This document shows positions 3,922 to 17,643 of a stretch of DNA of 21,340 nucleotides, one piece after another (the first letter of the stretch is position 1; each line of letters opens with the position of its first letter). The translations under genes were made by a program, and so were the position numbers. Where the stretch lies: positions 1-21,340 of the IMG/VR virus record IMGVR_UViG_3300001683_000125, one strand, 5' to 3'. Source of the stretch: a virus. The notes beneath the pieces are model-generated. The model searched no databases. It was not told where the DNA came from and saw only the letters and a program-made list of their open reading frames with translations.

Positions 3922-5937
3922 ATGGGAATGTTCAACGATGTTAATGATGCAATGGGGCAAGTTGGTGGTTTACTAAAATCACCTGCAATGTCTTCTGTTG
4001 ATAATATGAAGAACGCATCTACAAGTTTAAATGTAACAGCAAACTTGGATCAATACACATTAGAGCAAGGGTTTCCTGGACACGGTAATGCATTTTATCA
4101 ACAGATGCAAGAGATACAAAACCTTTCTGATGCATTTGATGAATGTGGTAATTATGCTCAAGACTTAGTTCAAGCATCTACTGAGGACTATATTAAGAGT
4201 ACTGGTATTCAAGAAGCAGGAAGGGATCTCGCCAATACGTTAGGTCAATATAAAGACGAAATTGATTGTGCAGCAGGTTTTGCTACACTATTCGATTCTA
4301 AAGGTATATTAGATGACGTATTAGGTATCGGAGATTTACCTCAAATACAATCCCGTGTACAGCAGATTATAAAAGACGCAACAAACCCAAATAAACTTGC
4401 TAATATGATTACAAACCTTGACGCAGTTCAGGGATTATTGCAACCATTTAATGACTTCTGTACAGGGATGAAAGACGCATTGAATCAATTGGTTGCAAAA
4501 GATTTAGCATCTATGAATGCTATTCTAAACAAGTTAGCACAATGGGCAGCCTTTACCAACCTAGCAACAAGTGACCCTTGTGCTTTGGTGAATAATAATA
4601 AGATGTTTTCTGCAATCACAGACCCAGTAATGGACGATATTCTAGATCTATATGATGGATTGCTTGGTGGTAATGTGGGCGATACAATCGGTGATATATT
4701 TGCACCAGACACACCAACAGCATTAATTGGAGGTTCTTCTCTAAACCAAGTCGGAGCAAGTGCAGTTCCTTTTGGTGAGTATTTCTCAACTATTGGTACT
4801 GATATCGGAGGAGGTATTACAGCAAGTATTGGTAATATTGTAAAATCGTCAGGAGAACAACTTAGTGATTTTTTAGGACTGGATGATGGTGGGACAGTTG
4901 TAGCAACATATACCAAAAGTTGGAATGGAACAGAGTGGGTTAGAGACGAAGACAATACTATTATTTCTGGTGTAGAATCTGTGACTGCCGGAGCTCTGGC
5001 AGGGAACAACTCATTCAACCCAGCATTAGATAACTTTAAAAAGATGAAAGAAGGTGTTGAGTTTGAAGCATTTAATAATACAAATGCTGTTAAAACTATT
5101 ATTTCTGAGTCATGTAGGGACGGTGTTGGGTCAAACCAATCCGATTGTTTAGCAAGTGGTGGAGCATGGTCTACTTCTAAATATTACCCAACAAACAAAG
5201 CAATTTCGGACGCTGCGAAAGGGTTGGGTGTCGCTTCGTTTGATGATGTTGCAAGTGGTTCTGATTTATTCAATACAACAACCGAAATTACAGATTTGAA
5301 TGCCGTTGAGAATGGTATTGATAATGATTTAGCAACAGAAAGTGTTTCTGGAGGAAATGTCGATTTGAATGCTGTTGAGAATGGTATTGATAATGATTTA
5401 GCAACAGAAGAACCTCCAGGTTCAGGAGCAGACACACCGTCAAACTCAGGTGGATCTGGTGTCGGAAAATCCCAAAGTGTATCAAAATCAATAAATAGGA
5501 GTGTAGGAAGGTCGGCTACAGCAACATCATTTACACCACGAGCACCAAGTGCGTCTAGAAGACCGGAACAAGGTAAAACCCCTTTCTCTAAATCTGCGAA
5601 TAATATCTCAAACTCAACAGGAGCTAAGGTACAAACTCCAGGTTCTACTAATTCCTTTGAAGATAATATTTCTTCGTTTGATTCTGACACAAATGCGGTC
5701 AAAAACGCAATTAGTTCTGGTGATTTTTCTAATATAACATCGTGTAGGTGTGTTGGAGGAAAGGTGTATGATACTGATGCGGGTTCATGTGCAGCCAGTG
5801 GTGGGTTATGGAAATGCCAAAAAGGAACATCTGGATTACCATCAGGGAGTATGAAATCAAACGATATGATAACGAACGCAAGAAATGTTGAACTTAGTTC
5901 AGTTCTTCCTACATCGTCAGCATTTAAGGGGTTATAG
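3922..5937 (+). CDS. Unrecognised structural protein between spike and PAAR genes
   Basis: I do not recognise this 671-aa protein. It has a strong AGGAG site (3911-3915) and sits 9 bases after the spike gene and 1 base before the PAAR gene, so a baseplate hub or virion role is likely. Residues 1-230 look mostly helical with scattered Cys and few charged clusters. Residues 260-340 are Gly/Ile-rich. Residues about 458-496 hold two copies of a DLNAVENGIDNDLATE segment. Residues about 500-575 are Ser/Gly/Asn-rich with Arg and Lys, probably a flexible linker. Two Cys/Trp modules occur: C398-x10-C-x6-W416, and one from C610 (preceded by C608) to W630. No signal peptide or membrane helix is seen. 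A tape-like or hub-associated role is possible but unproven. Confidence 0.85.
   Translation: MGMFNDVNDAMGQVGGLLKSPAMSSVDNMKNASTSLNVTANLDQYTLEQGFPGHGNAFYQQMQEIQNLSDAFDECGNYAQDLVQASTEDYIKSTGIQEAGRDLANTLGQYKDEIDCAAGFATLFDSKGILDDVLGIGDLPQIQSRVQQIIKDATNPNKLANMITNLDAVQGLLQPFNDFCTGMKDALNQLVAKDLASMNAILNKLAQWAAFTNLATSDPCALVNNNKMFSAITDPVMDDILDLYDGLLGGNVGDTIGDIFAPDTPTALIGGSSLNQVGASAVPFGEYFSTIGTDIGGGITASIGNIVKSSGEQLSDFLGLDDGGTVVATYTKSWNGTEWVRDEDNTIISGVESVTAGALAGNNSFNPALDNFKKMKEGVEFEAFNNTNAVKTIISESCRDGVGSNQSDCLASGGAWSTSKYYPTNKAISDAAKGLGVASFDDVASGSDLFNTTTEITDLNAVENGIDNDLATESVSGGNVDLNAVENGIDNDLATEEPPGSGADTPSNSGGSGVGKSQSVSKSINRSVGRSATATSFTPRAPSASRRPEQGKTPFSKSANNISNSTGAKVQTPGSTNSFEDNISSFDSDTNAVKNAISSGDFSNITSCRCVGGKVYDTDAGSCAASGGLWKCQKGTSGLPSGSMKSNDMITNARNVELSSVLPTSSAFKGL
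5113..5169 (+). other. Cys/Trp module in the 671-aa protein, copy 1
   Basis: It encodes CRDGVGSNQSDCLASGGAW: C, ten residues, C, six residues, W. It is followed by a Ser/Thr/Tyr segment. It belongs to the family of modules described for the giant protein and gp8. Confidence 0.8.
5293..5409 (+). repeat. Tandem 69-base (23-codon) in-frame duplication
   Basis: Two 48-base copies (5293-5340 and 5362-5409), each encoding DLNAVENGIDNDLATE, are separated by a 21-base spacer and differ at one third-codon base (GCC versus GCT at 5304/5373). The period is 69 bases, so frame is kept. Near-identity at the DNA level in an otherwise diverged gene suggests a recent duplication. Confidence 0.95.
5743..5817 (+). 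other. Cys/Trp module in the 671-aa protein, copy 2
   Basis: It encodes C-R-C-V-G-G followed by DTDAGSCAASGGLWKC. The Cys-to-Cys spacing is twelve (from the second Cys), the C-x6-W end is intact, and extra Cys flank both sides. It lies 40 residues before the C-terminus. Confidence 0.75.
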
Positions 5938-6678: not shown

Positions 6679-8451
6679 ATGGCACAACATGATAAACAAT
6701 TAAAAGTTTCAGAATTAGAATTTGATAACGTTAAAAAGAATATCAAGGACTTTTTAAGAGACCAAGACACATTTACTGACTACGATTTTGAAGGGTCGGG
6801 CATGTCTGTTATGTTAGATGTAATGGCATATACTACTCATTATATGGGATTTCATGCTAATATGGCAATCAATGAGTCCTTCCTAGATACAGCAACACTC
6901 AGAAATTCGGTAGTATCTCACGCAAAGTCTATTGGTTATACACCAAGTTCAGTTACTTCTTCCGAGGCAATTATTAAGTTATCTTTTGATACTACTGGAC
7001 TTGACCCACTTTCGATTCCTGTTGAAAAAGGAACAACGTTTACATCTACAGTAAATGGTTCTGCTTTACAATTCGTTGCTCTAGAAACTGTGAATATATT
7101 CCCAGATGAGTCTGGAGACTTCACTGGTGAAATCAAAGTGAACCAAGGAACAATGAAAACTTTAGAGTGGGACGTTGATGGTACAGCCACCCAATCGTAT
7201 TTTATTAGAGACGCAGGATGTGACCGAGCTACTATCGATTTGGGTATTATTGAACCACCATCAACTTTTTCAGTTCCGTGGACTAATAATGAATTATTGT
7301 CAGAACTAGTTCCTTTCTCTCAAGTATGGTTTGTACAAGAAGGGTTAGATGAAGTTACTGAAATCTATTTTGGCAATGGTATATTTGGTAAAATTCCAAA
7401 ACAAGGACAAACCGTTTCTGTTGAATATTTATCAACTAATGGCGAAGTCGGAAACTATACATCTACAATTAGAGACCAACTGTTTTCACTAGATGTTACT
7501 ATTGGTGAAAATTATGATTCAAATAGAGTTACTATTGAAACTGTAAACTCTTCCAACCTTGGTGCATCTGCAGAATCTACTGAATCAATTAGACAAACAG
7601 CACCTAAGTCTTATGAAAGACAAAACCGTGCTGTAACTGCCGAAGATTATAAAACTATTCTTTTAGAAAAATACCCTAATATTGATTCTATCAGTGTATG
7701 GGGAGGTGAAGACAATGATCCACCTCAATACGGTGCTGTGTTTATATCAATTAAACCTAAGCACGGTCTAGAGTTATCTCCTATTACTAAGAATCATATT
7801 AAAGATGATATTCTTAGTAAATATAATATGTTAGCAATTAACCCTATTATTGTTACTCCAGAATACACGTATATTGATATCGAAACAACAGTTAATTTCG
7901 ATCCACTGAAAACTTCATTATCTCTCGGTGAGATCCAGAACTCGGTTAGAGATTCTGTTTCTGCGTTCTTTGAGAGTGAGATTACTGAATTTAAAGTTGA
8001 TTTGAAGTTCTCTAAAATGACTAGGGTTATTGATGATGCAGAAGGTTCTATTACTAATAATACAACTACATTAAAGATTTATAAGAAATTTTATACTCAA
8101 GCATCTAATACTATCGGTAACTACATATTCAAATTTAATAATAAATTGAATCCAGGTTCTGTTGTATCTTCTGTATTTGGTTCTACTACAGACGGGTCTC
8201 AAATGGCATTGTTAGATGACGGTCAAGGTAATGTATTGCTTTATGATATTATAGCAGAAGGATTCATTAATACGGCACAAGGAAGCATTGATTACGAAGA
8301 AGGAACTATTGAATTAATTGGATTTAACCCAGTCCTTGATAACAATACAGTAATATCTTTATATGGTGTACCGAAAATTAATGATATCAGCACAATACGT
8401 AATAATCTATTGGTACTAAATAGTACAAACGTTATTGTCAAACCCATCTAA
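6679..8451 (+). CDS. 6: Baseplate wedge protein gp6
   Basis: This 590-aa protein is the gp6 family wedge protein (T4, 660 aa), which forms the continuous inner ring of the baseplate and belongs with the Baseplate_J group. The N-terminal part has YDFEGSGMSVMLDVMAYTTHYMGFHANMAINESF, a strong family signature. The J-like core is recognisable at ESTESIRQTAPKSYERQNRAVTAEDYKTILLEKYPNI (residues 294-330), followed by SVWGGEDNDPPQYGAVFISIKP. The C-terminal half is a beta-rich domain. AAAGGTG precedes the ATG, ten bases after gp25. It has no Cys/Trp modules, unlike its downstream neighbours. Confidence 0.93.
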   Translation: MAQHDKQLKVSELEFDNVKKNIKDFLRDQDTFTDYDFEGSGMSVMLDVMAYTTHYMGFHANMAINESFLDTATLRNSVVSHAKSIGYTPSSVTSSEAIIKLSFDTTGLDPLSIPVEKGTTFTSTVNGSALQFVALETVNIFPDESGDFTGEIKVNQGTMKTLEWDVDGTATQSYFIRDAGCDRATIDLGIIEPPSTFSVPWTNNELLSELVPFSQVWFVQEGLDEVTEIYFGNGIFGKIPKQGQTVSVEYLSTNGEVGNYTSTIRDQLFSLDVTIGENYDSNRVTIETVNSSNLGASAESTESIRQTAPKSYERQNRAVTAEDYKTILLEKYPNIDSISVWGGEDNDPPQYGAVFISIKPKHGLELSPITKNHIKDDILSKYNMLAINPIIVTPEYTYIDIETTVNFDPLKTSLSLGEIQNSVRDSVSAFFESEITEFKVDLKFSKMTRVIDDAEGSITNNTTTLKIYKKFYTQASNTIGNYIFKFNNKLNPGSVVSSVFGSTTDGSQMALLDDGQGNVLLYDIIAEGFINTAQGSIDYEEGTIELIGFNPVLDNNTVISLYGVPKINDISTIRNNLLVLNSTNVIVKPI

Positions 8452-8466
8452 TAGATAAAGGTAATT

Positions 8467-11400
8467 ATGTCTAATAAGCAATTCACTGAGTCACCAGCGA
8501 AGTTTCTTTCTATATTTGTAGAAAGAATGGTTCCGGACTATGTTCAAGAAGACCATCCTATGTTCGTTACATTCATGCAAAAGTATTTTGAATACTTGGA
8601 GCGTGATGCTGACGTCAATGGTGAGTTGGGTGAATATAAACAAATATCAGATTTAATTCAAAATGTTGATATTGACCACACATTAGACCAATTCATTCCA
8701 GAATTTGAGAAACAATACCTTCACAATATACCACAAGAAGCAATTGGTGTGGAAGTCCCGACCACAAATAAAGCATTCCTTGCTAAGAATATTAAAGAAT
8801 CTTATAAAGAAAAGGGTACTAAAAGTGCTTTGGACTTTCTATTCAGACGTGAATTTAATACAGAAGCATATGTAGCATACCCTAAAGACTTTATGTTGAA
8901 GTCGTCTGGTTCAGTTTGGTATGAACCACAATGGTTAGTAGTTTCAGAAGCAGAAGAAGATGTAAAGAAACTTTATAATAAGAAAGTAATTGGACAAATT
9001 TCTGGTGCGTCTGCATTTGTAGACATCGAAGAATTTGCTACTATGCCAGAACCAGAAAGGTTAATTTTGACTCAGGTTGAAGGTTCTTTTGTTCAAGGTG
9101 AGGAAGTATGGGAAGAGGTTGGTACTAGTGGAACTACTCCTAATAAATTAACAGTAGTTTCTGATGGTGTTATTGCGCCTGCCACTTGTTACATTAATGG
9201 TGTTGCGTGGAGTACTACTTACGGAGCAAACGTTCCGCAAACTAAAATTGCATGTGAGTCTTTAAAAGAAACAGACAATACAATTAAAACTGCTGTTTGG
9301 TTACCGAACGGTTATTGGGTTGATTCTACAGGTTTCTTATCTTCAGATCGTAAGATGCAAGACAACAATTACTACCAAGACTTTTCTTATGTAATTCGTT
9401 CAGACGTTCCTATACAAGCATATAGAGACGTATTAAAGAAATTAGTGCATCCAGTTGGACTTAAATTATTCGCAGAATATATGTTTGAGTCGACAGTTCC
9501 TATGGGAACGCAACTACCTGAAAAATACGCTGCGTACCTTATTTCGATATTCGCATACCTTGATGTTGCTGTTGACGTTTACCCTATCGGTAAATGTTCG
9601 GATTACCAAATTACAGACGAGAATTTATGTATTGATAGTGGAGCAACTTGGACTAGAGGGCAAAGTTACCGCACTACTCATCGCAAAACATACGATTGGA
9701 CAAGACCAGAAACGTTTGAATTACAAGAGGATGTTATTATTCCTTGGAATCATATGCGTTGGGACGGATCTACACGTGAAGATGTAGTCAGCGGAGTTCC
9801 TCAAGGAAGTGGTCAAGACGAAGTAGTAGTATCCGGAACAATAATCAACACAACTTTACCTAAAGGTGAAGAACGTTACAGAACAAAGGTTTGGAAGTGT
9901 TCTGAACCGACAGGCAACTACTCTTATGGTAATGACGCAGAACTGCTAACAGCAAGCACTAATTGTTTTGCTGCAGGTGGAGAGTGGGCACAACATATTG
10001 CAGGATCTAATTACTCAGATATGACAGATGAGTGGATCTTCGTTGACGACCAATGGAAACCTGAGAGCATATACAGCAAGAAAGAAACTCAAATTGGCGA
10101 AGAACATGAAGGGTTTGAGAAATTCTTAGACCAAGGGTTTGAGGATTATGTATTAGAGATCCTAAAGAAAACTGAAGTAAGATCTGAAATTGCAGATCCA
10201 TTAGATTGGAATCATCCTACGGACCACCTTTTAGTCGATATTACAACAGAAGCTGATTTGATTGGTACTAGACTTCATAGTAAGTTGTATCAAGTCTTCA
10301 CGATGAATGAAAATATTAAGTTAGGACTTGATGCATTCCCTGAAGAATTAGTATTGGCATATTATCAGCAAATCAAACTTCTTGATATCGCAGAACAACA
10401 TGCGTTAGATAATACATTAAATATACGCAGAACTCTTAAAGGTATTAAAGAATACCAAACAACAAATTCTGTATGTTCAGACCCATCAATAACAGCATAC
10501 GCAGAATGTGTTGACGGTGGTGCCTGTTCAGATTCAACTTACAACAACGACGAATATTCGTGTTTAAATGTTGGTTCTTGTTCTAGTAGTGCTAATGGTC
10601 TATTTACAGAATTATTATGCGAAGGTGCCGGATTCTTATGGACTGCACAAGCAGTTGCGAATACATGGACGGCGTCTGGCAATACTTGGACACACGAGAC
10701 TGTAGATTGGTTAGGAACTTATAACGAAGAATTCAAAGCAACCGACGGACGTATGGTTGGTTGTGAGATTTGGGAATTATTGGTTGCTAAAGGTCTTGAA
10801 TCTATTTTAGAACACCAGCTTACGTTCGTTCAAGTAGAATCATACGCACCAGAACAAAACTACCGTTTTTGGGAACAGAATAGAGAAAATTCAATAATTC
10901 AATCTATTTACGGTAACACGAACGATATTATTGATGCTGTGCATATTGAAGCATTTGATGTTGACGGAGGAATACGTACACATACGCACGGTCAGGTAGA
11001 CGGTTTTGCCCCTATGGTCGACACAGTATTAACTAAAGGTGTAGATTTACCTCAAATGGCAGTTGGTGCTTCTGCATTCCATACTCACGCATTTGACGGA
11101 ACAGAATTAAAGAATTTATTGGTACACGGAAAGTCGATAGACGCTAGTGGCATTTCATACCAACAAACTCGTGACTTATTAAACCGTGAAGCATTCGAAG
11201 TTCCTGCGATGCACGGTGCAAACCTTGTATGTGGTGGAATTATGACTCCTCCTCTATGGGGCGACTGGGTAGACTCTCATCAAGATCCACGATACAACGG
11301 AAATACTCATCCATATGGTGGAGGAGAATGTTTCAATTCAATTTATGATAATCCTACAGACTGTGTTGCCGCTTATGGTGGTAACTGGATGTTCTGGATG

Positions 11401-14250
11401 CCTCCTATGTGTTCTAATATGAGCAATCTCAACCAAACAGTTTGTGAAGATATGGGAGATACTTGGAATGCTATGCCACCATCATCTTGTGATGATGGAA
11501 CCTCTCCTGACCATATTCAATGTGAAGCCGCTGGTGGAACGTGGACTTGGGAATTCCCTAGTTCTTGTGCTTCAACTGAAGCATCTTGTAATGCTGTTGG
11601 ACATTCTTGGGGTTACTTTACTCTTGCTGAATTACCACCACTTAAAGGACATGTATCATACTTCGTTAAAGGTGAGTTGGTTGATAGACAACGTGGTCGT
11701 ATGGCAGACCCTCTTACAAGAGAACAAGCAAGACAATTAATTGATGGTGATATTGCTTCGGTAACACTTTACGACAACGTTGGAGCTTTAGATAAAGAAG
11801 GTCATCCAACATATGATGAATTTGAAATTACTATTGGTGGTACAATTACAAACATTTGGGGTGAAATCACTTCAGGTCACTATCACGAATATACAGTAAC
11901 TTACGACGCAGGTTGGGAAACTAAACAAGATTGGCGTGGTAACGATATGACTCATGGTTTTGTGTACACTCCAGTAACAACTTGGTTGTGTTTTAACTAT
12001 AAACCAGACTTACCTGTAGACCCTACTATTATGGCAGGAATGGATTTCTTAGGAAACACTTGGCCACAAAACGTATTCTTAGATGTTCCTGATTCCTATG
12101 TTGGTGGGTTCTTAATGAACCCCGATATTACATTACAACACAATCAAATTTGGTCTCCAGAATTAAACCCTAACGTTGATTGGGTAGAAATTTATTCATC
12201 TAACTTTATTCAAGACGTTCCTGGTTCGGGTAACATTGACGACTTGATTGGTGTGCAGCAGGTGGCCGTTAATACTGATATTGCTACAATAGAAGCATAT
12301 CCTGGAATGAATGAAGACTACATTGTGTTGGTTGATCAATCAGGTTTCCTTTACTTACAAAAGGTTGCAGGAGAATGTTCAGATAATACTTCTGTCAATA
12401 AAGCAGACTGCGTAACAAACTTATCTACTTGGGCAGTTCCTGATACAGCACCATTGTTGTTCATGGACTTATCTTCATTACAACACGTTATCGGTCTAGG
12501 TTCTTTTGCGAACTATGACGAACGTGGTGTATTAGGTTTAGCATTCCACCCAGATTATTCTAACAATGGTAAATTCTACGTTTACTATATGACAGAACAA
12601 GGCGGAGGCACAGGTGCTTGGGGATTCCCATTATCTACAACTGTTATATCCGAGTTTACTGCTACTTTTGGTGGTAATTGGGACGTTGCTGATGTTTCGT
12701 CAGAAAGAATTCTACTAGAAGTTCCTCAACCAGACTTTAACCACAATGGTGGTGAGTTAGCATTTGGACCAGATGGTTACCTTTACATTGGTTTAGGTGA
12801 TGGTGGTTCTGCTGGTGACGTATCATGGGCACAAGGACATGGTGGTCATGGTGACTACGGTAATGCTCAAAACCCTACAAACTTCTTAGGTAACATTTTA
12901 AGAATTGACGTGGACTCAACTAACGGTTCAGTTCCTTATTCAATTCCTGCAGATAACCCTTTCATTAATTCAATATACAAAGAAGGACAAGCAGAAGCAC
13001 AACCGTTTAGACCTGAAATCTATGCATTCGGATTTAGAAATCCGTGGAGATTCTCGTTCGACGTGCAAGGCAGACTATGGTGTGCTGATGTTGGACAAGA
13101 CAAATTCGAAGAAGTGAACATTGTTGAGATTGGTGGCAACTATGGTTGGAGAGTAATGGAAGCATATCATTACTATGAAGAACAACAAAGCATTATTGAC
13201 CAAATCGCAATTGACTTAGGATATACTACTACGTTAGAATACTTGAGTGACTTGAAGAAACCTATACATGAATATTCTCATGGTACTGGTATTTCCATCT
13301 TAGGTGGATTTGTTTATCAGGGCACAGAAGTTCCGGAATTGACAGGCAAGTATGTCTTTGGTGACTGGGGCACGAACTGGGCAGGTACTAGTGGTAGATT
13401 ATACACACTAGAAGAAAACATTGCAGGACTTTCTGCGAACTTTAACGTATTACCAAACGCAGTCAACGGTGCAACACATAGTCATACATTGACTTTAACC
13501 GCAGCCGAGGTTGATTTTTTACACACAAATCCAGGAAGTCCAGTAGTAACAATACAAACCGACACGATTCATGCTGAGTTTTATGTTCATACATTTACGG
13601 TAACATATAGTTCTGCTGATGAATTGTTCCACATTATAGGACAAACTAACCCAGAAGGACATGATATATTAGAGTTTATAGGTTGGTCTGACGATGTTGG
13701 TTATACAAGAAAGTCTTTATCTTTCTGGGATCCAGTTACTGAAGTCGTTACACTGACTACGTTTGATGAATCGGTGTTGTCTATGGGCGAAGATTCAGCG
13801 GGAGAAATATATTTCTCAACACGTATGGGTATTAACACATTCCAACCGCCTTCAGGCGCGGGACCAGATAATACTAAAATCTTTAAGATTACAGACGCAT
13901 ATAGTTCAGTAGAAGTTCCTAATGCTCCTGAGCAAATTCCATCAACACAAAAAGCACATACTCACGGGTATAAAGTAACATACGACTTCGCAGAACAGAT
14001 GTTTGACACTGTTGAAATTTCTGATATTGAAATGCCTGAATGGGACGCGTTCTGGCCAGATTGGACAGAAAACGAACCTGCTTCTCACGTTCACCCAGTT
14101 ATTACTGCATGGTCTCATGCAGTTGATGTACAAATTCCTTTAGGTTCTTCCGCTGGTTGGTACTACAATACAGACACCGAAGTTTGGGGTCCATATGACA
14201 TCGGTGCTGATACAGCATGGGCACCTCCTGCGATCGATACTGGTGGTTAA
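8467..14250 (+). CDS. Giant baseplate protein in the gp7 position (first ORF)
   Basis: This 1927-aa ORF lies between gp6 and gp8, where T4 has gp7 (1032 aa), so a wedge role is inferred from synteny. Residues 1-165 form a conserved phage N-terminal domain (FVERMVPDYVQEDHPMFVTF, KYFEYLER, YKEKGTKSALDFLFRREFNT). Residues 275-350 carry a second conserved unit (LSSDRKMQDNNYYQDFSYVI, then RDVLKKLVHPVG). Cys/Trp modules occur near 377, 478, 670-730, 955-1050 and 1304. Residues about 1240-1660 are a glucose/sorbosone-dehydrogenase-like propeller. HxH motifs occur from residue 839 onward. AAAGG lies upstream of the ATG. The frame ends inside an HxH array that continues in the next ORF, so the protein is probably longer or the frame is broken. 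Confidence 0.9.
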   Translation: MSNKQFTESPAKFLSIFVERMVPDYVQEDHPMFVTFMQKYFEYLERDADVNGELGEYKQISDLIQNVDIDHTLDQFIPEFEKQYLHNIPQEAIGVEVPTTNKAFLAKNIKESYKEKGTKSALDFLFRREFNTEAYVAYPKDFMLKSSGSVWYEPQWLVVSEAEEDVKKLYNKKVIGQISGASAFVDIEEFATMPEPERLILTQVEGSFVQGEEVWEEVGTSGTTPNKLTVVSDGVIAPATCYINGVAWSTTYGANVPQTKIACESLKETDNTIKTAVWLPNGYWVDSTGFLSSDRKMQDNNYYQDFSYVIRSDVPIQAYRDVLKKLVHPVGLKLFAEYMFESTVPMGTQLPEKYAAYLISIFAYLDVAVDVYPIGKCSDYQITDENLCIDSGATWTRGQSYRTTHRKTYDWTRPETFELQEDVIIPWNHMRWDGSTREDVVSGVPQGSGQDEVVVSGTIINTTLPKGEERYRTKVWKCSEPTGNYSYGNDAELLTASTNCFAAGGEWAQHIAGSNYSDMTDEWIFVDDQWKPESIYSKKETQIGEEHEGFEKFLDQGFEDYVLEILKKTEVRSEIADPLDWNHPTDHLLVDITTEADLIGTRLHSKLYQVFTMNENIKLGLDAFPEELVLAYYQQIKLLDIAEQHALDNTLNIRRTLKGIKEYQTTNSVCSDPSITAYAECVDGGACSDSTYNNDEYSCLNVGSCSSSANGLFTELLCEGAGFLWTAQAVANTWTASGNTWTHETVDWLGTYNEEFKATDGRMVGCEIWELLVAKGLESILEHQLTFVQVESYAPEQNYRFWEQNRENSIIQSIYGNTNDIIDAVHIEAFDVDGGIRTHTHGQVDGFAPMVDTVLTKGVDLPQMAVGASAFHTHAFDGTELKNLLVHGKSIDASGISYQQTRDLLNREAFEVPAMHGANLVCGGIMTPPLWGDWVDSHQDPRYNGNTHPYGGGECFNSIYDNPTDCVAAYGGNWMFWMPPMCSNMSNLNQTVCEDMGDTWNAMPPSSCDDGTSPDHIQCEAAGGTWTWEFPSSCASTEASCNAVGHSWGYFTLAELPPLKGHVSYFVKGELVDRQRGRMADPLTREQARQLIDGDIASVTLYDNVGALDKEGHPTYDEFEITIGGTITNIWGEITSGHYHEYTVTYDAGWETKQDWRGNDMTHGFVYTPVTTWLCFNYKPDLPVDPTIMAGMDFLGNTWPQNVFLDVPDSYVGGFLMNPDITLQHNQIWSPELNPNVDWVEIYSSNFIQDVPGSGNIDDLIGVQQVAVNTDIATIEAYPGMNEDYIVLVDQSGFLYLQKVAGECSDNTSVNKADCVTNLSTWAVPDTAPLLFMDLSSLQHVIGLGSFANYDERGVLGLAFHPDYSNNGKFYVYYMTEQGGGTGAWGFPLSTTVISEFTATFGGNWDVADVSSERILLEVPQPDFNHNGGELAFGPDGYLYIGLGDGGSAGDVSWAQGHGGHGDYGNAQNPTNFLGNILRIDVDSTNGSVPYSIPADNPFINSIYKEGQAEAQPFRPEIYAFGFRNPWRFSFDVQGRLWCADVGQDKFEEVNIVEIGGNYGWRVMEAYHYYEEQQSIIDQIAIDLGYTTTLEYLSDLKKPIHEYSHGTGISILGGFVYQGTEVPELTGKYVFGDWGTNWAGTSGRLYTLEENIAGLSANFNVLPNAVNGATHSHTLTLTAAEVDFLHTNPGSPVVTIQTDTIHAEFYVHTFTVTYSSADELFHIIGQTNPEGHDILEFIGWSDDVGYTRKSLSFWDPVTEVVTLTTFDESVLSMGEDSAGEIYFSTRMGINTFQPPSGAGPDNTKIFKITDAYSSVEVPNAPEQIPSTQKAHTHGYKVTYDFAEQMFDTVEISDIEMPEWDAFWPDWTENEPASHVHPVITAWSHAVDVQIPLGSSAGWYYNTDTEVWGPYDIGADTAWAPPAIDTGG
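9595..9651 (+). other. Cys/Trp module in the giant protein, copy 1
   Basis: It encodes CSDYQITDENLCIDSGATW, exactly C-x10-C-x6-W, starting at residue 377, just after the HPVG-containing conserved unit. Confidence 0.85.
9898..9990 (+). other. Cys/Trp module in the giant protein, copy 2 (long spacer)
   Basis: It starts at C478 and ends in STNCFAAGGEW. The C-x6-W end is canonical, but the gap between the two Cys is about 21 residues, so an insertion has lengthened the loop. Confidence 0.75.
10474..10644 (+). other. Cys/Trp module triplet in the giant protein
   Basis: Three units are joined head to tail from residue 670. Unit 1 is CSDPSITAYAECVDGGAC, unit 2 CSDSTYNNDEYSCLNVGSC, and unit 3 starts CSSSANGLF and ends LLCEGAGFLW. 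In the first two the closing Trp is replaced by a Cys that immediately precedes, or is, the start of the next unit. Confidence 0.75.
11329..11616 (+). other. Four tandem Cys/Trp modules in the giant protein
   Basis: Units from residue 955 are CFNSIYDNPTDCVAAYGGNW, CSNMSNLNQTVCEDMGDTW, CDDGTSPDHIQCEAAGGTW and CASTEASCNAVGHSW. Three have the C-x10-C spacing and three the C-x6-W end. They are joined by short Pro/Met/aromatic linkers (MFWMPPM, NAMPPSS, TWEFPSS), suggesting repeated duplication of one unit with its linker. Confidence 0.85.
12178..13446 (+). other. Glucose/sorbosone dehydrogenase-like beta-propeller domain
   Basis: Residues about 1238-1660 of the giant protein resemble the PQQ-dependent sugar dehydrogenase family (GSDH). 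Seen in order: ERGVLGLAFHPDYSNNGKFY, HNGGELAFGPDGYLYIGLGD, NFLGNILRIDVD, AFGFRNPWRFSFD, LWCADVGQDKFEEVNIVE, GGNYGWRVME, PIHEYSHGTGISILGGFVYQ and GKYVFGDWG. His1426 corresponds to the family catalytic His. Arg1524-Asn1525 correspond to cofactor-binding residues. Whether it binds PQQ or only sugars cannot be told here. A Cys/Trp module is inserted in the first blade region. A receptor- or glycan-binding role is inference. Confidence 0.85.
12376..12432 (+). other. Cys/Trp module inside the sugar-dehydrogenase domain
   Basis: It encodes CSDNTSVNKADCVTNLSTW (C1304), C-x10-C-x6-W. It lies between FLYLQKVAG and APLLFMDLS, two propeller strands that are normally separated by a short turn. Confidence 0.85.
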
Positions 14251-16483
14251 TGTTGCACCAAACCTTGTAGTGAGTATTGCGAATGAGTATGGAGCAGAAG
14301 GACATTTCCATTACTTTGACGATGTTATTTTAGATTCTTTTGGTGAAAACTACGGAAGACGTTCTAACTCATTAAGTCAAGTTGCCGCAGAAATTCTCGC
14401 AAACCAAGAAGAAGGCACAATACATACTTTGTATTCTTCGATTGTAGATGACGGAGTTCGTCGTCATTATCACGGTTATGATATTACATATTCTGCAGCA
14501 CAACGTACATTTGTATTAGAAGAGACATCAGAATGGGAAGAGGGTGTGCGTGATACAGGTGCGTACATATTAGTAGGAACGCAAACTCATGAGCATCCAA
14601 CTTCAGTTGATGGGCTATTAACGTCTGTTGGTTGGAATGGAGATCCGTCGTTTGAGGCACCATCTGCTGTTATTGGTCAAGCGAATGACTGGGATAACCT
14701 TAATGGTTCTTTAATTCCGCATCAACATTACTTTAATGATACTTCGTTAGACCAAATTGGTCCTAACTCGGATAGAATAGCAAGTTACTTATCAAACACA
14801 CAAACTACGGATTTAATCTCAGGTGCTATTGATAATGTAACATTATATTCTTCAATTTACCAAAATCATTACCATGAGTATGATGTAACGTTTGACTCAT
14901 TAAACAGTTCTTTGGTTATACAAGAAGTAGAGCAATGGGTATCTTCTGATAACCAACAATACTTTATTAGAACTCCTGCTGATCACAGACACCCTGTTTC
15001 AGTAGACGGTATTCCTAGTGGAACAGGATACAATCAGGTTATATCAGTAAACAATTTGCCTATATTTGATTCTCCAGGTTTCCCTTATCCTGGTGGATCG
15101 CATCCACACTTCTTCAACAATACTGTTGTTGGACCATTCTCAGATGGCACTATTGATTATGCTGTTGGGTTAAGTGTCGACGAAGCATATAAATTGATTG
15201 ACGGAATTACAAATCAAGTTACCCTTTACGACTCTATCTCTGGTGGACATTTCCACTTATATATTGTTAAATGGGACGATTTGAATAATGTATTCTATTG
15301 TACAAGTTCTGTTACATACGTTCGTGGTGGAATTGAAGATGCACTTCAAGATACTGGTAGATATTACCTATCGCAAATCTTAGGTCCATCTGAAGGGTTG
15401 CATTGGCATAACTTAACAATTGAATGGAATCCAAATAATGAAGCAGATGCTCAGCAAAGTGGTGGTTCTATTTACCAAACAAACATTGCAAGTTCGTATG
15501 AAACTTTAGTTAATCCACCTTCGGTTGAAGTTAATGTTAATACAACACCATTATCTCCTGTATCTACTAGTTATCCAGATACTCCAAGTGCAGGCGACGA
15601 TACAACCATTATAACATATAGCGATTTGACGACGACTACTACTACGACAACTACAATCACAAATGTGACAGAAACTATTACAACTAATAGTTCAGACGGA
15701 ACGAGTACTTCTACTGTATTACCTCCAGTAGTCACAACAGACGTAGACGTTACTGCATCTACGTTGACTATTGAAAACGAATTAAAACGTAAGACGTTTG
15801 TTAATAACATTTTACAAGTCAATAACCCACCGACTATATGGATCGGTTCTACGTTTATTGACGGTGAAGGTTCGCATGACCATTTACTATATCAAGGTTG
15901 TTCTTTAGATACACAAGGACCATACTCAGGTAGAATGTGTGAACCTATTACTTTAGCAACTGCAAACTTATTAGTGAACTCGCAGGATTCTACCTTCGGA
16001 ACGGTTTGGTATGATTCACCTAACGGAAACATGGCACATTACCATAGTTACTCGTTGAAGTTTAACCCTTTCTTGGGCGACGACGGAACGTTCCTTGCGT
16101 TACCTATTAGTCAGTTTGATAGATTCCCTGGTTCGGGTACAAATGTTCATAAGTTTATGTTGAGTGGAGGTTTCCATACCCATACATATTTCCTAACGGA
16201 AACTGAATATGCTACTTTAGTTGGTGGAGGATTGGTTCAAACTTTCCAAGCAGACGCAATTCACGCAGAATTATATACACATACTTTAGTTATTAGACTT
16301 GTGAATTTCCAATACCAAATTGTATCTCAGACTTCGGACTTTGATAATCACAATGTTGTTGTATATCAGGGTATGGTTGCTGAAGGTGGACAGTGGATTC
16401 AAAGTCAACAAGGTTCTGGACTAGGCGACCATATTCACTCTACTACGATTGATGAGACAAATATATGGCCGCTTCCGGCATAG
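14195..16483 (+). CDS. Giant baseplate protein continuation, HxH-repeat ORF
   Basis: The open frame runs 762 aa from the ATG at 14195, but the first 15 codons overlap good coding sequence of the upstream ORF and encode an unconvincing start (MTSVLIQHGHLLRSI). Real coding in this frame probably begins near 14240, by a +1 frame change or by initiation at GTG 14243, which overlaps the upstream stop by eight bases but has no clear ribosome site. The content is HxH repeats: HFHYF, HYHGY, HEHP, HQHYF, HYHEY, HRHP, HPHFF, HFHLY, HWH, HDH, HYHSY, HTH and HIH. They sit in units of about 300-400 bases with VTLYxSI and VSVDG blocks. Residues about 465-515 are Thr/Ser-rich. It probably forms one polypeptide or complex with the upstream ORF. 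Confidence 0.8.
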   Translation: MTSVLIQHGHLLRSILVVNVAPNLVVSIANEYGAEGHFHYFDDVILDSFGENYGRRSNSLSQVAAEILANQEEGTIHTLYSSIVDDGVRRHYHGYDITYSAAQRTFVLEETSEWEEGVRDTGAYILVGTQTHEHPTSVDGLLTSVGWNGDPSFEAPSAVIGQANDWDNLNGSLIPHQHYFNDTSLDQIGPNSDRIASYLSNTQTTDLISGAIDNVTLYSSIYQNHYHEYDVTFDSLNSSLVIQEVEQWVSSDNQQYFIRTPADHRHPVSVDGIPSGTGYNQVISVNNLPIFDSPGFPYPGGSHPHFFNNTVVGPFSDGTIDYAVGLSVDEAYKLIDGITNQVTLYDSISGGHFHLYIVKWDDLNNVFYCTSSVTYVRGGIEDALQDTGRYYLSQILGPSEGLHWHNLTIEWNPNNEADAQQSGGSIYQTNIASSYETLVNPPSVEVNVNTTPLSPVSTSYPDTPSAGDDTTIITYSDLTTTTTTTTTITNVTETITTNSSDGTSTSTVLPPVVTTDVDVTASTLTIENELKRKTFVNNILQVNNPPTIWIGSTFIDGEGSHDHLLYQGCSLDTQGPYSGRMCEPITLATANLLVNSQDSTFGTVWYDSPNGNMAHYHSYSLKFNPFLGDDGTFLALPISQFDRFPGSGTNVHKFMLSGGFHTHTYFLTETEYATLVGGGLVQTFQADAIHAELYTHTLVIRLVNFQYQIVSQTSDFDNHNVVVYQGMVAEGGQWIQSQQGSGLGDHIHSTTIDETNIWPLPA
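14303..16438 (+). repeat. HxH-repeat array, second part
   Basis: Four to five units can be aligned by eye at about 14303-14610, 14720-15010, 15101-15425 and 15875-16120, with a shorter tail to 16438. Order in a unit: HxHxF, an acidic/Gly stretch with GR or DR, an Ala/Leu helix, V-T-L-Y-x-S-I, HyHxY-x-V-x-x-D, a beta strand, then HxHP-x-SVDG. Units are diverged in DNA, so the array is old. Confidence 0.85.
15624..15720 (+). repeat. Threonine/serine-rich linker
   Basis: A run of nine threonines among T/I/S/V residues (DLTTTTTTTTTI region, then TETITTNSSDGTSTSTV) separates the last two HxH units. Codons ACG, ACT and ACA alternate, so it is not a simple slipped triplet. Probably a flexible or extended spacer. 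Confidence 0.8.
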
Positions 16484-16554: not shown

Positions 16555-17643
16555 ATGGGTGCAATTGTAACCAGTAAATTTAGAACTCAGAACTTGATGG
16601 TTTTCATCGACCAGTTTAAAACCACTGGTGTTGCAGCTGATGATAACTTCTTGTACTTAGGATTTGGACGTTCGGATGCTTGGGCAGACGACGTAAACGG
16701 AAATGACGAATCAAACGGTAACTTTATCTTACCAGACCCTTTAGACGAGGACGAGGCAAGATATTGGGCAGATATTGTGGGTGCTAAACGTATTCAGGAT
16801 GACGATATTTCTCCCGTACTTCCTCGTATTGACTGGGATAGTGGTGACCCATATGCTTTTGATGGTTCTGAAGGTGTAACAGGAATCCCTGATGCTGGTC
16901 GTTCGTTTATTTCTATTGTTGGATCTCATTCTATTGCAATGAACACGGAGTACCGAGTGTATGAATGTGTGAAAGAGCCTGGTGGAGCATACTGTGACGA
17001 TTACACTAGCAATAGTGCAACTGACTGTGCAGCAGCTGGTGCAACTTGGACTGCAGAGACAAGTGGTTTTGGTAAATGTTACATTGGTGGTTCTTATTCA
17101 GCAATTCAAACGGATAGAACAACTTGTGAAGCAACTGCTGGTGGACTTTGGTTACCAAACGCTGCTTCTAATAGTCCTACTGGAGCGACAGGTGATGTTG
17201 CTCAAACTGTTGCTCAAGTAATTGACACACTAGACGGTTATGTATGGAGCTACCTATACAAACTAGAACTAAATGATATTATTAACTCAACTACAAATGA
17301 CTGGATGCCTGTAATTTACGGTGATTCTGTTCTTGCTGGTTCTGAACAAGCAGTGTTTGGTGATGCTAATGCTATCTTCTCTGCTAAATGTCATCACGGA
17401 CTAATTCACGTTAGACTTGAAACTTCTGATGGTTTCCCAGACAACGACGACTTCCGTCAAATTGGTTTACTACGTAACCCAGAGTTAGATGGTGGTGGTT
17501 CAAAGGCACAGTCTTCTGTGTATTCTGATGCTACGTTATCTTTAGAAGAAAATACTGGACAGTTGATTTATTTGGAAAACAGACGTGCAATTACTCGTGC
17601 CCCTGACCAAATTGAGGACCTGAAACTTGTAGTAGAATTCTAA
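16555..17643 (+). CDS. 8: Baseplate wedge protein gp8-like
   Basis: This 362-aa protein matches gp8 (T4, 334 aa), a dimeric wedge subunit. Family-like parts are GAIVTSKFRTQNLMVFIDQF at the start, NFLYLGFGRSDAW, EARYWADIVGAKRI, VLPRIDWDSG, AMNTEYRVYECV, then DGYVWSYLYKLE and DWMPVIYGDS. The region between VYECV and NSPTGATGDV, a short loop in typical homologues, holds about 60 residues with two Cys/Trp modules (C146-W165 region and C180-W199 region). This accounts for the extra length. It has a strong AGGAG ribosome site and tandem late promoters. Confidence 0.85.
   Translation: MGAIVTSKFRTQNLMVFIDQFKTTGVAADDNFLYLGFGRSDAWADDVNGNDESNGNFILPDPLDEDEARYWADIVGAKRIQDDDISPVLPRIDWDSGDPYAFDGSEGVTGIPDAGRSFISIVGSHSIAMNTEYRVYECVKEPGGAYCDDYTSNSATDCAAAGATWTAETSGFGKCYIGGSYSAIQTDRTTCEATAGGLWLPNAASNSPTGATGDVAQTVAQVIDTLDGYVWSYLYKLELNDIINSTTNDWMPVIYGDSVLAGSEQAVFGDANAIFSAKCHHGLIHVRLETSDGFPDNDDFRQIGLLRNPELDGGGSKAQSSVYSDATLSLEENTGQLIYLENRRAITRAPDQIEDLKLVVEF
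16966..17151 (+). other. Pair of Cys/Trp modules inserted in gp8
   Basis: The first unit is CDDYTSNSATDCAAAGATW (C-x10-C-x6-W). The second starts CYIGGSYSAIQ and ends TTCEATAGGLW, with a longer Cys-to-Cys gap of 15. They occupy a loop after the VYECV strand. Confidence 0.85.

Follow-up and report, generated by a model that had tools for sequence, protein, structure and literature searches.

In a clade of T4-like phages, a structural tail protein contains a redox-enzyme fold whose catalytic residues have been preserved by selection. Judged from sequence profiles and a predicted structure, the domain is a complete propeller belonging to a secreted GSDH subfamily of bacteria, and it sits in the baseplate wedge protein at the gp7 position. 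We tentatively read it as a virion-borne, host-facing module that engages envelope glycans with a preserved sugar pocket; its surface exposure, its ligand and its presence in virions are what we infer. The window (the whole stretch of 21,340 nucleotides analysed here) comes from an uncultivated virus record, and the viruses with the domain are uncultivated viruses of bacteria.

The window holds a T4-like baseplate gene run (tail tube cap, gp53, gp5, PAAR, gp25 and gp6, then the GSDH-bearing open reading frame (ORF) and gp8; Table 1). The N terminus of ORF 8467–14250 matched a wedge family (PF23786; 31 bits against a cut-off of 27), and its residues 1–360 matched the baseplate wedge model phrog_17744 (E 1.1e-51) and had tblastn matches in 477 phage records. 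A search of the PDB with residues 1–360 gave no hit up to E 1, solved T4 gp7 included, and the label 'gp7-position' is based on synteny and wedge-family profiles, not on a sequence match to T4 gp7. The original prediction had placed the domain in the protein at this position; the wedge profiles and the synteny with gp6 and gp8 agree with that placement, whereas T4 gp7 itself lacks a sequence match. A contig that is 99.93% identical to the window across 18.9 kb (L010) contains 11 nt at about position 14250 that the window lacks, and the frame of the window is broken there. Because L010 has these 11 nt and one uninterrupted frame of 2,679 residues, ORF 14195–16483 of the window is part of the same gene; the near-identical single frame rules out that ORFs 8467–14250 and 14195–16483 are two genes. 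Homologues from this locus are encoded by one ORF each, 2279–3088 residues long. The 11-nt deletion at window position 14250 is probably an assembly error or a strain mutation.

Table 1 Features of the baseplate locus, in window coordinates
Feature	Position	Strand	Basis
gp6 baseplate wedge, upstream neighbour	6679..8451	+	Profile matches
gp7-position baseplate wedge protein, first part of broken frame, 1927 aa	8467..14250	+	Profile matches; synteny gp25–gp6–this ORF–gp8
N-terminal wedge part, aa 1–360, common to other T4-like wedge proteins	8467..9546	+	phrog_17744 E 1.1e-51; tblastn
GSDH six-bladed propeller with nested inserts, aa ~1255–1814	12229..13908	+	Pfam, PDB-chain matches, AF2 fold
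Cys mini-module in propeller loop, lineage-specific	12376..12432	+	Sequence
His1426 (NHNGG), equivalent of sGDH catalytic His144, invariant	12742..12744	+	Alignment
Arg1524-Asn1525, equivalent of sGDH Arg228-Asn229, invariant; His-Asp in Hhip	13036..13041	+	Alignment
ADVGQ, aa 1540–1544, at position of sGDH Ca-binding Gly247-Pro248 loop	13084..13098	+	Alignment
HxH insert nested in propeller before last blade	13456..13700 (about)	+	Sequence
Continuation of gp7-position protein in other frame: HxH array and C terminus	14251..16483 (ORF 14195–16483)	+	L010 frame; single-ORF homologues
HxH array (L010 aa 1944–2328), 9 HxH motifs, 18 invariant His	14273..15427	+	Sequence; no fold match
gp8 baseplate wedge, downstream neighbour	16555..17643	+	Profile matches

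The Pfam GSDH family (PF07995) matched residues 1339–1632 (E 3.5e-32; 112.4 bits against a cut-off of 25), and among solved chains ORF 8467–14250 matched Hhip (E 9e-28) and sGDH (E 6e-15). Both motifs by which a GSDH-like domain had been predicted, HNGGEL and GFRNPWRF, are present, as NHNGGEL at residues 1425–1431 (nt 12739–12759) and GFRNPWRF at residues 1522–1529 (nt 13030–13053). The limits first assigned to the propeller, 12178–13446, had to be redrawn: it starts nearer 12229 and ends at about 13908, the last blade (ESVLSMGED...FKIT; 13768–13908) having been missed downstream of a nested HxH insert. The score for TIGR03606, a PQQ-dependent glucose/sorbosone dehydrogenase subfamily, was 72.4 bits, below its NCBIfam cut-off of 434.55. 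An AlphaFold2 (AF2) model of medium confidence (pLDDT 64, pTM 0.66), built with 15 phage sequences, was compared with solved structures by Foldseek and VIA-align; the top match was HHIP-C (7PGN; VIA Z 35.8, 2.7 Å, 345 residues), followed by aldose sugar dehydrogenases (2ISM/3A9G; Z 31.4) and sGDH (Z ~26), with unrelated propellers ranking lower. The proposed comparison with sGDH and Hhip thus returned these two as the closest folds. Profile scores and fold rule out a chance motif match.

When pocket residues were mapped through sequence alignment rather than by superposing the model, the equivalents of sGDH His144, Arg228 and Asn229 were found in 15 of 15 aligned phage sequences. The Lys377 and Arg406/Arg408 (RxR) anchors, in the numbering of 1CQ1, are missing; the aligned positions read DW[GS] and SxLxxGE. 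In the calcium loop, Pro248 of sGDH is replaced by Gln. Inspection of the PQQ-contacting and catalytic residues, suggested at the outset, therefore gave a divided answer, with the catalytic residues invariant but the anchors absent. All ten aligned relatives from Verrucomicrobia have the identical pattern of kept and missing residues, so the loss of the anchors is older than the phage gene, and decay of an enzyme within phages is unsupported, since the bacterial relatives also lack them. Retention of the catalytic His suggests binding or chemical alteration of host-surface sugars by the particle.

Substitution patterns indicate that the propeller is under purifying selection, with dN/dS of 0.11–0.19 (by NG86; in several pairs dS was close to 1 or higher). 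Median identity over up to 136 pairs was 69% for the propeller core and 67.5% for gp6, compared with 59% for the HxH array, 58% for the C-terminal HxH part and 55% for the nested insert; the core is conserved like gp6 and unlike its HxH flanks. This pattern is one of functional constraint and not that of a fast-changing receptor tip.

The invariant residues and this constraint bear on a reading in which the propeller is an active virion oxidoreductase: supplied with PQQ and calcium by the surrounding water or the periplasm, it would oxidize a host-envelope sugar during entry and so modify the receptor or loosen the capsule. We regard it as rather unlikely. In its favour, His, Arg and Asn are invariant in all 15 phage sequences, the Arg-Asn pair lost in non-enzymatic Hhip is kept here and in the ten Verrucomicrobia relatives, the core is constrained as strongly as gp6, and the fungal homologue CcPDH depends on PQQ even without several of the bacterial PQQ contacts (PMC4133262). 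Against it stand the absent equivalents of Lys377, Arg406 and Arg408, the change of Pro248 to Gln, the lack of an explanation for the PQQ supply and electron acceptor of a virion, and the lack of known biochemistry for the bacterial GSDH subfamily. We consider it unlikely that the particle has a working quinoprotein in its baseplate, a PQQ-dependent sugar oxidase chemically modifying the glycans of the host surface at attachment.

Scans of IMG/VR returned two overlapping sets, of 23 and 33 loci, in which a long ORF contains the domain, and about 20 distinct uncultivated phage loci have the propeller at the same place; in the 12 loci inspected closely, the neighbours are the same wherever the sequence covers them. 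Each of seven contigs searched (the longest 124 kb) contains one GSDH copy, and none has it as a separate gene. In that 124-kb relative, host clues were absent—no tRNAs were found, and none of the 20 proteins scanned was a host-telling gene. The contig, that of L018, encodes a tryptophan halogenase and a GLEYA/PA14 adhesin-like protein (L151:5405–6973, L152:8885–12391). Genomic context led us to reject a free auxiliary metabolic gene: a passage on mangrove soil viromes does list AA12 genes as viral auxiliary CAZymes, with no link to tails in that passage (PMC6460857), but here complete copies are embedded in a structural ORF that exceeds 2,200 residues and lies between gp6 and gp8, and they never form a gene of their own in the seven contigs. 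We accordingly consider it highly improbable that the domain works as a free sugar dehydrogenase inside infected cells.

In a survey anchored on gp6, complete domain-bearing ORFs again spanned 2279–3088 residues, and three contigs (L117, L119 and L120) have complete versions of 711–714 aa without the propeller and without the HxH array. These three form one clade in the gp6 tree, sister to L112 (support 99/95) and nested among carriers, so their lack of the propeller is a secondary loss. Relatives whose gp6 is 35–38% identical (Mosig and Melnitz included) have versions of 587–896 residues without GSDH. The most economical history has the propeller gained once, at the base of the clade, and lost once. 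Because one subclade lost the propeller together with the HxH array, the propeller is accessory and not core, and that subclade offers a natural control, a gp7-position protein without the propeller. In two pairs (L014 vs L004 and L017 vs L015), third-codon-position identity is higher in the propeller than in its flanks, which suggests that the propeller has been exchanged between phages by recombination.

The original prediction had HxH repeats flanking the propeller; they do surround it, but they also lie inside it, in an insert nested before the last blade. Across 75 residues, this insert (~80 residues) is 32% identical to the HxH unit at the C terminus of the protein. L010 contains 19 HxH motifs against a mean of 2.5 and a maximum of 8 in shuffled sequences; 18 of the 19 are conserved as HxH in all alignable homologues, and the remaining one is in 14 of 15. 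The modules span window positions 14273–16480, and single motifs also occur upstream of the propeller. Pfam searches with ORF 14195–16483, aa 512–1078 and the nested insert found no family up to E 10, YHYH included, and for the HxH array (AF2 pTM 0.35) Foldseek gave nothing below E 0.001, with a best VIA Z of 3.5. YHYH domains, proposed zinc binders, are present in other phages, pelagimyophages among them (PMC7824862, PMC7029224). The HxH modules are possibly metal-binding spacers.

A second small element, a Cys mini-module (C-x2-18-C-x2-9-W, often with a GGxW end), recurs across four or more different structural ORFs, with window sites at 5113, 5749, 9595, 10579, 11329–11610, 12376, 16993, 17077 and 18107. 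Its copy number and place differ between close relatives, also in the propeller loop, where the window has one, L001 several in tandem and most relatives none; it behaves as if it were a mobile mini-domain. Further inserts of roughly 90–130 residues are found in other propeller loops of single lineages (L022, L016 and L019).

A propeller with inserts in several loops resembles a scaffold, and its best structural neighbour, Hhip, is non-enzymatic and contacts its Hedgehog partner through a blade-3 loop (PMC8660895). These points are what would be expected if the domain were purely a scaffold or protein–protein module that positions the HxH arms or contacts tail proteins, its catalytic residues being relics. 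We nevertheless doubt this explanation: the residues that Hhip lost are invariant in the phage domain, the core that holds the pocket shows higher conservation than the remaining C-terminal half, and one subclade manages without the propeller.

We tentatively prefer glycan engagement by a host-facing propeller. The propeller is an accessory domain inserted into the gp7-position wedge protein of a T4-like clade, in its C-terminal half. In this protein the wedge N terminus would anchor the protein and the long C-terminal half would form a peripheral arm at the baseplate edge facing the host. The preserved central pocket may then engage sugar residues of envelope glycans (lipopolysaccharide or capsule) and help the particle dock ahead of irreversible attachment, the surrounding HxH modules serving as putative metal-stiffened spacers. 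Family and fold, fixed context, single copy, accessory status, constraint and the invariant His, Arg and Asn speak for this reading, as does heparin binding by HHIP-C, which has the same fold (PMC8660895). Counted against it are the medium-confidence AF2 model, the slow evolution and the location of heparin binding in HHIP-C, on the surface instead of in the central pocket. Because slow evolution is unusual for a specificity-determining receptor binder, the propeller may recognize a widespread glycan, or may carry out chemistry instead. Glycan binding is likelier than oxidation.

None of the PHROG models matches the GSDH domain. Among 50,697 phage records, matches occurred only in four Acinetobacter 'phage' contigs, in features annotated yliI, and this collection yielded no GSDH domain in a tail protein. 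Clear propeller matches among the viral structures searched were from giant viruses, and in the open literature we found no paper linking GSDH to a phage tail protein. Known tail enzymes that act on glycans are hydrolases, lyases, esterases and deacetylases, and we found no precedent for a virion-borne PQQ-dependent sugar oxidase. If the propeller is active, these phages would have a redox route for altering host glycans; if it only binds, phages would have recruited for recognition the same propeller that animals use in Hhip. Some viral AA12/GSDH genes classed as metabolic may instead encode virion parts.

Among known systems, the gp7-position proteins of Kyanoviridae such as Pelagibacter phage Mosig and Methylophilales phage Melnitz likewise follow gp6 and are 28–30% identical in the N-terminal part, but have 875–896 aa and no GSDH. 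sGDH (1CQ1) and the aldose sugar dehydrogenases (YliI 2G8S, 3A9G and 2ISM) have the same six-bladed fold (Z 26–31) and have the catalytic His and the Arg-Asn pair in common with the phage domain; they are free enzymes, and their Lys377, Arg406/408 and Pro248 are not conserved in it. The Hhip propeller is the best PDB match in both sequence and fold, yet Hhip is a non-enzymatic animal signalling antagonist that has lost the Arg-Asn pair kept by the phages. Secreted-type GSDH proteins (PF07995) of Verrucomicrobiota and Planctomycetota are 33–44% identical to the phage domain; they have ~400–1200 aa, are not in a phage tail gene, and no nested HxH insert was seen in them. Two bacterial relatives from a pattern search (L025 and L026) have, by sequence appearance, a cupredoxin-looking stretch before the GSDH domain, possibly an electron acceptor. 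The phage domain and these secreted GSDH proteins have ERGLL, NHNGG, RNPWRFSFD, ADVGQ..EE, GD[YW]G and FGED in common, and lack the same anchors.
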